Assembly: GCA_903885605.1 (NCBI GenBank)
Contig: CAISJD010000192.1
Span: 65,063-129,062, forward strand
Origin: an uncultured Chthonomonas sp.
GTDB taxonomy: Bacteria; Armatimonadota; Chthonomonadetes; Chthonomonadales; CAJBBX01
Length of the DNA stretch: 64,000 nucleotides
Reading direction: 5' to 3'
Below are positions 27,209 through 47,908 of this stretch, piece by piece. The position numbers and the translations under genes were made by a program. Numbering within the stretch: the first letter of the stretch is position 1; each line of letters starts with the position of its first letter. Below the pieces are notes generated by a model. It did not search any database, was not told the origin of the DNA, and worked only from the letters and a program-made list of their open reading frames with translations.

Positions 27209-28519
27209 ATGATGCAGGTGGTTTGGGTGGTGGCGGCGCTGGCGCTGGTGGCTTCGGTCTGTTGCGTGGCGGATGACCGGTCGGCTTCGCCGCGTCCTGC
27301 TACCGCCGAGGAGATGCAGTGGTGGCGCGACGCCAAGCTGGGGCTCTTCATCCATTGGGGACCGGCCAGCGTGCGGGGCGTGGAGATCAGCTGGGCGCGG
27401 ATCGGCCACCCCTTCGACCACCACGGCCATGAGACGGTGCCCGCCGGCGAGTACGACCAGCTCTACAAGCGGTTCGACCCGGAGAAGCTGGACGCCGACA
27501 AGTGGATGCGGATGGCCAAGCAGGCCGGGTGCAAGTACGTAGTCTTCATCACCAAGCACCACGACGGCTTCTGCCTCTGGCCCAGCAAGCTGACCGACTA
27601 CAACATCACCAACACGCCCTACAAGCGCGATATCTGCCGCCAGATCGCCGACGCCGCCCACAAGCATGGCCTGAAGCTGGGCTGGTACTACTCGACGCGC
27701 GACTGGACCCATCCCGACTACCTGCAGGGCGACAACAGCCGCTACAACGACTACTACCACGGCCAGATCGAGGAGTTGCTGAGCAACTACGGCAAGGTCG
27801 ACATCCTCTGGTTCGACCACGTCTGCGGCAACTGGGGCGCCTACCGCTTCCGGGAGCTGTTCAGCATGATCTACCGGCTGCAGCCGCACATCCTGGTCAA
27901 CAACCGCGCCGCCCGGTTCGTCTTCCCGACCAAGGACCAGCCTGCGGCGGGCCTGCTCGACTTCGTGAACGGCGACTACGAGACCCCGGAGCAGCAGATC
28001 GGCGCCTACCACATTGACCGCGCGTGGGAGTCCTGCATGACGATGACCGAGTGCAAGGACGGCGGCGGCTGGTCCTACCGTCCCGACGGGCGCACCCGCG
28101 ACGCCGCCGAGTGCATCAAGATCCTGGTCAGCACGGTTACCGGCGACGGCAACCTGCTGCTCAACGTGGGCCCCATGCCCACGGGCGAGATCATGCCCGA
28201 CCAGGTGGAGCATCTGGCCGAGATGGGCGCGTGGATGAAGCAGTACGGCGGCACGCTGTACGGCACGCGCGGCGGACCCATCCCGAACGGGGCCTGGGGA
28301 GGCGCCACCCGCAAGGGCGATCGGGTCTGGCTGCACCTCTTCCCCTGGCAGGGCGAGAGCCTGAAGCTGCCCGCGCTTCCCGGCAAGGTAGCCTCCGTCA
28401 AGACGCTGACAGGCGGCCAGGCCACAGTGACGCAGGCCGCCGACGGCACGGTGGTCACGCTTGCGGCGAAGGACCGCCACGCGGTCGACACCATCGTGGA
28501 GTTGCGAATGGAGCGGTAG
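27209..28519 (+). CDS. Alpha-L-fucosidase, GH29
   Basis: MQWWRDAKLGLFIHWGPASVRGVEISW...KYVVFITKHHDGFCLWPSKLTDYNITNTPYKRDICRQIADAAHKHGLKLGWYYSTRDWTHPDY...VDILWFDHVCGNW...GDGNLLLNVGPMPTGEI. Confidence 0.92.
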   Translation: MMQVVWVVAALALVASVCCVADDRSASPRPATAEEMQWWRDAKLGLFIHWGPASVRGVEISWARIGHPFDHHGHETVPAGEYDQLYKRFDPEKLDADKWMRMAKQAGCKYVVFITKHHDGFCLWPSKLTDYNITNTPYKRDICRQIADAAHKHGLKLGWYYSTRDWTHPDYLQGDNSRYNDYYHGQIEELLSNYGKVDILWFDHVCGNWGAYRFRELFSMIYRLQPHILVNNRAARFVFPTKDQPAAGLLDFVNGDYETPEQQIGAYHIDRAWESCMTMTECKDGGGWSYRPDGRTRDAAECIKILVSTVTGDGNLLLNVGPMPTGEIMPDQVEHLAEMGAWMKQYGGTLYGTRGGPIPNGAWGGATRKGDRVWLHLFPWQGESLKLPALPGKVASVKTLTGGQATVTQAADGTVVTLAAKDRHAVDTIVELRMER

Positions 28520-28571
28520 GAAGGTTGGAAGGGTACTATGCTGGTGTCCTGCAGACCCGAGGAGGGATGTA

Positions 28572-29045
28572 GTGGCTGGATCATTGTTCAGTGCAAAGGC
28601 ATATTACACAGCCGCCAATGAGCACCTTGGTCTCTCACTGCGGCTTGTCAACTCCGGTGAGCACCTCGCTGCGCACTACTTCGCCGGGGTGGCGGCGGAG
28701 GCTGTGTTGCGTGCCCACGTGGTGCGCATCGGGCACGCATTCACCAGCAACCATAGCATCTGGTATCTCGCGGGGCTAGCAGGCCTCACCAGTGATGGTC
28801 GCCGTGATGGTACGGATGACCTTCAGGCCGCACTGATCGAGATCGAGACGCGTTGGCGGGCCAACCACCGCTACCTGCCGCGCGAAGGTCTCCTTGCATA
28901 CCTGAACTCGACAGGCCTCGATTGGCGCGTTCGAGGTGACCGGGTCAAGTACAGCGCCACTCGAATGGTGGATATGGCCGGCACGGTTGTCGCAGAAGGG
29001 GCCCGCAAATGGAGCAAGTCGAACAACACGTTCGCGAGAGCATAG
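28572..29045 (+). CDS. HEPN-like helical protein (putative)
   Basis: GTG start after GGAGGGATGTA; VAGSLFSAKAYYTAANEHLGLSLRLVNSGEHLAAHYFAGVAAEAVLRAHVVRIGHAFTSNHSIWYLAGLAGL resembles the HEPN helix/AAExxLRA...H pattern; canonical RX4-6H not clearly present. Confidence 0.45.
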   Translation: MAGSLFSAKAYYTAANEHLGLSLRLVNSGEHLAAHYFAGVAAEAVLRAHVVRIGHAFTSNHSIWYLAGLAGLTSDGRRDGTDDLQAALIEIETRWRANHRYLPREGLLAYLNSTGLDWRVRGDRVKYSATRMVDMAGTVVAEGARKWSKSNNTFARA

Positions 29046-29266
29046 CGCGTCGTTTTCCCGGCGCCGAGATACATGTGGGGTGGGACCCCGACATGGAGAA
29101 GGTTGCCGGGTATGTGCTGTGGTCGGGGTTCGAGCGCAAGAAGTTCATCACACGCCAGAAGCTGCTCTTTGGCGCTCTACGCAAGGACCTCGGGGACGAA
29201 GCCCAGCACGTGTCCATCATCTTCGCCCATACGCCCAACGAGTACGAGGTGATGAGCGCCTGCTAG
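29009..29266 (+). CDS. Small BolA-like-pattern protein overlapping the HEPN-like gene
   Basis: 85 aa MEQVEQHVRESIARRFPGAEIHVGWDPDMEKVAGYVLWSGFERKKFITRQKLLFGALRKDLGDEAQHVSIIFAHTPNEYEVMSAC; overlaps the upstream CDS by 37 nt in another frame. Confidence 0.55.
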   Translation: MEQVEQHVRESIARRFPGAEIHVGWDPDMEKVAGYVLWSGFERKKFITRQKLLFGALRKDLGDEAQHVSIIFAHTPNEYEVMSAC

Positions 29267-29327
29267 CTGCCACGCCTTCGAGTGCAGCTGCCGCAGCCCG
29301 TGCCCTGCCATGGAAGGAGTGCCGGCG

Positions 29328-46698: not shown

Positions 46699-46941
46699 AT
46701 GAAAGACCAAGTCGTGGAGGCAATCAGGGACGTCTTTGAGCCGAGTATGATCGATGAGAGTGCGCTCACCGAAGTGGATGGCCATGTTTACGGCACCGTG
46801 CAGGTGATCGGATCGCCAGTGTTCGATGCGCTCGATGATGTGCGCCGCCAGCATCGCCTCTGGGACAAGCTCATCGCAGTGCTGGGTGGCGATGCTCTGA
46901 ACGTCGGCCCCGTCGTTCTTCAGCCTGGCCGGCGTGGCTAG
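46699..46941 (+). CDS. Small BolA-like-pattern protein
   Basis: 80 aa MKDQVVEAIRDVFEPSMIDESALTEVDGHVYGTVQVIGSPVFDALDDVRRQHRLWDKLIAVLGGDALNVGPVVLQPGRRG; overlaps the next CDS by 8 nt. Confidence 0.55.
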   Translation: MKDQVVEAIRDVFEPSMIDESALTEVDGHVYGTVQVIGSPVFDALDDVRRQHRLWDKLIAVLGGDALNVGPVVLQPGRRG

Positions 46942-47908
46942 AACGGTCGGCGCCATCGGCGCCCCGCGCAAAGCAATGCGGGAGCGTATCGATGTGCTTC
47001 GCCAGGCCCTGCCGCAGCTCATCCGTACGGCTGTTCTACGGGCCGCCCCGGACCTCCCGTGGCGCCTTGACGGATGTGTGTACCAGTACACGCGTTTCGA
47101 GGCGTTGCTGGCCATGGTGGGCGGCCCTATCGTCCGGCCCTCTGCGGCTAAGCAACCCATGTCCGAGCTGTGGGCAACATCATCGGTTCACCTTAACGAT
47201 TCGCAGGAGTTCACGCGCGGTCGCGAGGTGATTGCCAAGGCTCTGCCCATTCTGCCAAAGGACGAGGTCACCAGGAGGATGACCAGAGCGGTGCATGATG
47301 CAGACGCTCTGGAGGTCTACTGCACGTGCTTCTCTGGCGTGGATGATGATCTCAGCCAGTGGCGCGGTTACGGCGCCGACGGTACCGGAGTCTGCATCGA
47401 GTTTGACTTGCGCAAGCTCATAGAGGGGCTTGATGGCGTAGGATGCTGGCTCATCTACGGGAAGCCTAACGATAAGTCCGAGTTAACGCAGGTTGCTGTC
47501 GCCGAGAAGCTAGTCACGTATATCCATCGCAGCATCGCTACCGCACTGCCACCCGGGCGCGTACCGGAAGCGGTCTACAGTGAGGTCCGGGAGCAACTGG
47601 CCGAGATATGGTCGGCGCTGTTCTTGGTGTTTAAACACCAGGACTTCTGCGCGGAGAACGAGTTCCGGATCGTCTACTCTAGTGCTGTTGGTCGAACCAT
47701 TGAACCGGCGTTCCGCCCGGATTCCGTGGTTCCGTTCGTGCCACTTCAGATGACATCCGGTAAAGCGCTGCCGGTAACGGCCATACGCCTCGGGCCCGCT
47801 GTCAGTACTGACATCAACGTTCGAAGCCTTGAACTCCTACTGAGCAGGCTGAAACTCGGCGATCGTATCAGGGTAACCAAGAGCGACATACCTTACGTCC
47901 CCCGGTAG
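46934..47908 (+). CDS. DUF2971-like protein
   Basis: VYQYTRFEALLAMVGG...ELWATSSVHLNDSQEFTRGREVI...VYCTCFSGVDDDLSQWRGYGADGTGVCIEFDLRKL...FVFKHQDFCAENEFRIVYS: the DUF2971 pattern (xLwaSsvxxLNDxxEFxxG; CFSxxxDxLSQWRxYgxxGxGvcIgF). Confidence 0.75.
   Translation: MARTVGAIGAPRKAMRERIDVLRQALPQLIRTAVLRAAPDLPWRLDGCVYQYTRFEALLAMVGGPIVRPSAAKQPMSELWATSSVHLNDSQEFTRGREVIAKALPILPKDEVTRRMTRAVHDADALEVYCTCFSGVDDDLSQWRGYGADGTGVCIEFDLRKLIEGLDGVGCWLIYGKPNDKSELTQVAVAEKLVTYIHRSIATALPPGRVPEAVYSEVREQLAEIWSALFLVFKHQDFCAENEFRIVYSSAVGRTIEPAFRPDSVVPFVPLQMTSGKALPVTAIRLGPAVSTDINVRSLELLLSRLKLGDRIRVTKSDIPYVPR

Follow-up and report, generated by a model that had tools for sequence, protein, structure and literature searches.

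Introduction

Many toxin-antitoxin, abortive-infection, and CRISPR systems use HEPN ribonucleases as effectors, and the well-described stand-alone partner controlling a HEPN protein is the MNT nucleotidyltransferase. The BolA fold, which is engaged in iron-sulphur trafficking, has been widely studied and is poorly understood, and DUF2971 is to our knowledge a family without known function. In the type VII HEPN/MNT (HepT/MntA) systems, a HEPN protein stands beside its partner in a two-gene unit (PMC7641770, PMC11586414) and carries RX4HXY, the motif known from the RNase toxin HepT (PMC7641770). The locus described here has both of these features, whereas its second gene encodes a protein of predicted BolA fold in place of the nucleotidyltransferase. 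In BolA itself, two His serve as Fe-S/metal ligands, one in the [H/C] loop and the other being the invariant C-terminal His (PMC7538681).

HEPN modules and BolA proteins are each known, but we could not find the combination of a HEPN protein with a His-less BolA-like partner described in the searchable literature. Queries pairing HEPN with BolA, DUF2971 with toxin, and KGGVGR with HEPN, together with a query for PDC-M28, returned nothing relevant (most subscription papers and preprints lay outside their scope), BolA is not mentioned in the HEPN survey PMC3710099, and both HEPN and toxin go unmentioned in the BolA review PMC10051749.

The HEPN Gene and Its Locus

The window, meaning the whole stretch of 64,000 nucleotides that was analysed, belongs to contig C192 of the Armatimonadota genome G000, a close relative of which is the Armatimonadetes MAG JAPLCQ01. 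The two coding sequences of 157 and 85 aa reported in an earlier note on this DNA, overlapping out of frame by 37 nt, were recovered as described (Table 1). An ORF on the 5′ side that ends at 28519 presumably encodes an alpha-L-fucosidase, and the ORF on the 3′ side, from near 29310, encodes what we take to be a beta-helix protein. The sequence around the pair showed neither a consensus promoter nor a consensus terminator. A scan of genome contigs gave a single match, the congener G002, in which the HEPN pair occupies the same position (L032).

Table 1. Positions of the two cassettes and their elements in the window.
Feature	Position	Strand	Remarks
Shine-Dalgarno-like AGGAGG	28560..28565	+	6 nt 5′ of the HEPN GTG; identical in congener G002 (L003)
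ORF 1, HEPN gene (subfamily A, putative RNase effector)	28572..29045	+	GTG start, 157 aa
RX4HXY codons R94-W-R-A-N-H99-R-Y101	28851..28874	+	inside the HEPN gene
ORF 2, His-less BolA-like partner gene	29009..29266	+	ATG start, 85 aa
Second, diverged BolA-like gene	46699..46941	+	80 aa; family profile E = 6.3e-4; alignment
DUF2971 gene	46934..47908	+	324 aa; Pfam DUF2971 2.9e-8, above cut-off; weak PADLOC PDC-S31 matches

The lowest GC of the window is found in the two cassettes, at 0.61 for the HEPN pair (lowest 1%) and 0.60 for the stretch 46699-47908 with its BolA-like and DUF2971 genes (lowest of its length), against 0.70 for the window. Both genes of the HEPN pair are under purifying selection, with pN/pS values of 0.25 for the HEPN gene and 0.12 for the small gene relative to G002, and of 0.53 and 0.22, respectively, relative to G001. 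A chance ORF was rejected on the grounds of this selection together with conservation.

Sequence profiles assign the first protein to HEPN, in agreement with the likeness proposed in the earlier note: Pfam HEPN (PF05168) recognises 16 of the 19 members of the family, with a best value of 5.4e-7, the window protein on its own reaching 16 bits, under the Pfam cut-off of 22, and the PADLOC profile PDC-M28A matches 17 of the 19 (best 4.9e-7). An AlphaFold2 (AF2) model built from two sequences was poor (pLDDT 57, pTM 0.51) and all helical, and its top five Foldseek matches were of HEPN type (1wol, 1ufb, 1o3u, 4nqf, and 2hsb), each with E > 0.03. The same note had seen no clear RX4-6H RNase motif, which proved mistaken, as the window protein carries RX4HXY in the form RWRANHRY at residues 94-101 (R94, H99, and Y101). 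Of the 19 subfamily-A members, 17 retain R, 14 retain H (replaced by Q in four and by F in one), and 18 retain Y (F in one).

A BolA Fold without Its Histidines

Profiles and a structural model both indicate that the small protein is homologous to BolA, which goes beyond the likeness of pattern from which a BolA-like second protein had originally been proposed. A profile of 22 small-family members searched against the PDB found almost only BolA structures (best 1.4e-5), and profile-profile comparison of the small family with genuine BolAs gave a probability of 98.6%. The AF2 model of the partner (pLDDT 91.5, pTM 0.80) has the element order a-b-b-a-a-b-a of the BolA topology, and Foldseek ranks 1-11 in the PDB are all BolA (best 7e-4, TM 0.50-0.69). 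Pfam BolA (PF01722, curated cut-off 25.7 bits) gave no match to the window protein; it matches seven of the 22 members when E values up to 10 are admitted (best 1.6e-5), and one subfamily-B relative scores 25.7 bits. The family is thus recognisable by profile and has in common with BolA and IbaG (YrbA) the fold, the topology, the core hydrophobic Phe, the helix Arg, and the T-P-x-E region, while R49-Q50 and G34 are invariant within it.

This assignment bears on the possibility of a type VII HEPN/MNT pair, in which the partner would chemically modify the HEPN tyrosine. The RX4HXY motif would suit such a system, its tyrosine being the AMP acceptor in HepT (PMC7641770), but the partner has neither a nucleotidyltransferase fold nor GSX10DXD, its model and profiles being those of BolA. 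Because the partner is of the BolA fold and not a nucleotidyltransferase, adenylylation of the HEPN tyrosine by it is impossible as a mechanism, and an HEPN/MNT pair, to which we attach practically no probability, was excluded on the fold of the partner.

The small family is nevertheless not canonical BolA, as absence of BolA's three conserved His characterises the family, a loss that the earlier note had not recognised. No member of family A (0/23) has the [H/C]-loop His or the His that follows the helix Arg, each of which is present in 9/9 canonical BolAs, the latter position being invariantly Gln in the family; the C-terminal His, again 9/9 in canonical BolA, is kept in 1/23. That single case is the window protein, whose H67 aligns with the invariant C-terminal His of BolA. 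In a tree, the His-less clade stands on a branch apart from canonical BolA with 100/100 support (few columns, midpoint root). The neighbourhoods differ likewise, since the His-less genes adjoin HEPN or DUF2971 genes and no monothiol glutaredoxin. Genuine BolA is rare in Armatimonadota (2/151 genomes, L146 and L147), and both genes adjoin Grx4 and keep their His; when genomes were searched with the family profile, genuine BolAs of other phyla were recovered as well, of which at least seven, again with His, adjoin a Grx4-like gene.

An ordinary BolA, active in Fe-S or redox chemistry and standing beside HEPN by chance, would account for the clear BolA homology and for H67. The lost His of the family, the lack of a Grx4 neighbour, the well-supported separate clade, and the constant pairing with HEPN described below speak against it and make it highly improbable; this explanation was rejected on the lost His and the neighbours.

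Conservation and Distribution of the Pair

Searches were made by tblastn of the HEPN protein against 301 genomes and with profiles of both families against 397 genomes. Of about 290 Armatimonadota genomes, 23 contain subfamily-A HEPN genes, at 25 loci in all, and at 25/25 of these loci the small gene lies directly 3′ on the same strand (for G026:C181 from coordinates only), so that the adjacency on which the earlier note had made its proposal depend is conserved and the co-directional, overlapping pair looked for in toxin-antitoxin systems is found throughout. The overlap is mostly 7-37 nt at intact loci and is longer at L013, where the HEPN frame extends. That HEPN and the His-less BolA-like protein constitute a conserved module is close to certain.

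The association is specific, because HEPNs of other subfamilies found with the same profile (L123, L125-L127, L132, L133, and L135) carry a different, unrelated partner of ~130 aa. The comparison with PDC-M28A is limited in the same manner: this HEPN profile recognises most family members, but no PADLOC model convincingly matched the BolA-like partner, and other PDC-M28A-like HEPNs (L123 and L126) are among those with the unrelated protein. The ~130-aa partner itself overlaps its HEPN by 22 nt at L123, L125, L126, L127, L132, L133, and L135, and in the two cases tested neither Pfam nor PADLOC matched it convincingly; it may form with HEPN another pair, possibly undescribed.

Outside Armatimonadota, one genome (G411) contains a HEPN and BolA-like pair, at L131. 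A check for mis-binning gave a GC of 0.69 for its contig against 0.68-0.72 in four other contigs, so the contig is not obviously foreign, in a genome that is fragmented. Two other phylum-level groups that were probed yielded, apart from L131, only HEPNs with other partners. No match was obtained in scans of viral contigs or by tblastn in plasmids with both proteins and further members as queries, and the indication of mobility for this pair is therefore only indirect.

A broken or truncated HEPN gene accompanies an intact partner at four loci (L016, L022, L023, and L064), at L063 an intact BolA-like partner stands beside a truncated DUF2971 gene, and at L083 an orphan partner survives, whereas no intact HEPN without an intact partner was met among the loci examined. 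This asymmetry of decay is not significant, because the cases are few and HEPN is the longer target. L083 and one further locus show other states of decay. At L083 (G019:C269:6500-9500), the orphan BolA-like gene follows a decayed second copy, and its vicinity gave no HEPN match; at L014 (G024:C45), a decayed HEPN and a decayed partner are followed by a second BolA-like copy free of internal stops. The evolutionary distances of the HEPN and BolA-like families co-vary (r = 0.76), which may just mirror shared descent.

Other Effectors Sharing the BolA-Like Domain

The partners of the BolA-like domain further include DUF2971 proteins and HEPNs of a second subfamily, neither of which the earlier note was aware of. 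At about 15 loci (group B), a gene of the second HEPN subfamily lies directly 5′ of the BolA-like gene, its product retaining W..RY and lacking R...H. At seven loci (group C), the order is reversed, the BolA-like gene lying directly 5′ of a DUF2971 gene and abutting it or overlapping it by up to ~11 nt; the copy in the window (Table 1) has an 8-nt overlap. A third BolA-like gene of the same genome, at L063 (G000:C88:15200-18500), is likewise followed by a DUF2971 gene, in which the match ends after ~20 codons as if unrelated sequence had been substituted, and the copy in G002 (L086) is longer and recognisable.

Group B has a bearing on a second alternative, in which the two proteins would form an RNA-recognition complex, the KH/HTH-like surface of the BolA-like protein binding nucleic acid and directing or licensing HEPN in RNA processing or RNA sensing. 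BolA folds resemble nucleic-acid-binding proteins (PMC10051749), and HEPN domains without catalytic residues have been proposed as nucleic-acid binders (PMC3710099); the subfamily-B HEPNs keep their partner despite the lost RX4H, and the invariant R49-Q50 and G34 would be consistent with such a surface. The patchy, low-GC, and decaying accessory distribution is, on the other hand, atypical of housekeeping RNA processing, and the domain is common to DUF2971, which is not a HEPN effector. We regard an RNA-recognition complex as possible though unlikely, with something of a one-in-four standing.

In the phylum-level group to which G411 belongs, two loci (L144:2113-5228 and L145:2131-5225) consist of a HEPN gene followed, with a 4-nt overlap, by a gene for a large NTPase, whose product combines an N-terminus that may be BolA-like with an ATPase of KGGVGR/ParA-like type and a further P-loop NTPase region. 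Against a true-BolA profile, the N-terminus of L145 scores 20 bits (E 2.9e-5; best shuffle 4.4) and that of L144 no better than shuffles. At L153 (G741:C160), a HEPN gene and a KGGVGR ATPase gene lie directly 3′ of a reverse-transcriptase-like ORF, an arrangement that appears retron-like by eye.

These loci suggest a regulated defence module, in which a HEPN effector would be combined with a BolA-like adaptor that reads a signal, comparable to HEPN before a KGGVGR/ParA-like NTPase. The HEPN-NTPase gene order at L144 and L145, the score of L145, the pairing of HEPN with a KGGVGR ATPase beside a reverse transcriptase at L153, and the resemblance of HEPN to PDC-M28A all point in this direction. 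In Armatimonadota, however, the partner is a bare domain of 80-90 aa, with no fused NTPase seen, and of the two candidate fusions with a KGGVGR NTPase, that of L144 scores like shuffles, a BolA-like N-terminus at L153 being putative; we consider a signal-reading adaptor of this type rather improbable.

A Proposed Toxin-Antitoxin-like Mechanism

The explanation favoured here is a neutralising, toxin-antitoxin-like mechanism, in which the BolA-fold partner would bind and restrain a HEPN RNase effector. The earlier note had raised a toxin-antitoxin or RNA-binding module as a possibility. The first gene would encode a HEPN ribonuclease-type effector with RX4HXY as its active-site motif and a putative toxic activity, and the overlapping second gene a small BolA-fold protein without the Fe-S/metal ligands of true BolA. 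Direct binding of this protein would keep HEPN inactive until stress or phage upset the balance, whereupon HEPN would be released from its inactive state, which would give the module a role in defence or stress. The same repurposed BolA fold would serve the second HEPN subfamily and the DUF2971 effectors.

This mechanism is proposed because of the pairing at 25/25 loci with gene overlap, the patchy (23/~290 genomes) and low-GC occurrence, and the survival of partners alone (L016, L022, L023, L064, L083, and L063) with no HEPN-only case, and further because RX4HXY is known from the HepT toxin, the partner domain is common to the unrelated effector DUF2971, the HEPN family resembles the PADLOC candidate-defence profile PDC-M28A, and the distances of the two families co-vary. 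Against it stand the replacement of the H of RX4H by Q or F in five of 19 subfamily-A members and the loss of R...H in subfamily B and in the HEPN of L131, together with the small number of decayed loci, the shared descent that may underlie the co-varying distances, and the lack of viral and plasmid matches. On balance, we hold neutralisation of HEPN by its partner to be a proposal that could fall either way.

Conclusions

In a wider form of the proposal, the BolA fold, stripped of its metal-binding His, would have been reused as a general antidote or adaptor serving conflict effectors unrelated to one another, namely two HEPN subfamilies, DUF2971, and perhaps the KGGVGR-NTPase systems, and would amount to a new class of antitoxin or effector control; for this too we see the chances as evenly poised. 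A partner of the BolA fold would, if this is true, represent a new way of restraining a HEPN effector, and the BolA fold would gain a role outside Fe-S chemistry. As the same domain travels with DUF2971, it also offers a handle on the role of that family. Were the partner to serve effectors of several classes as their antitoxin, it would merit a class of its own.
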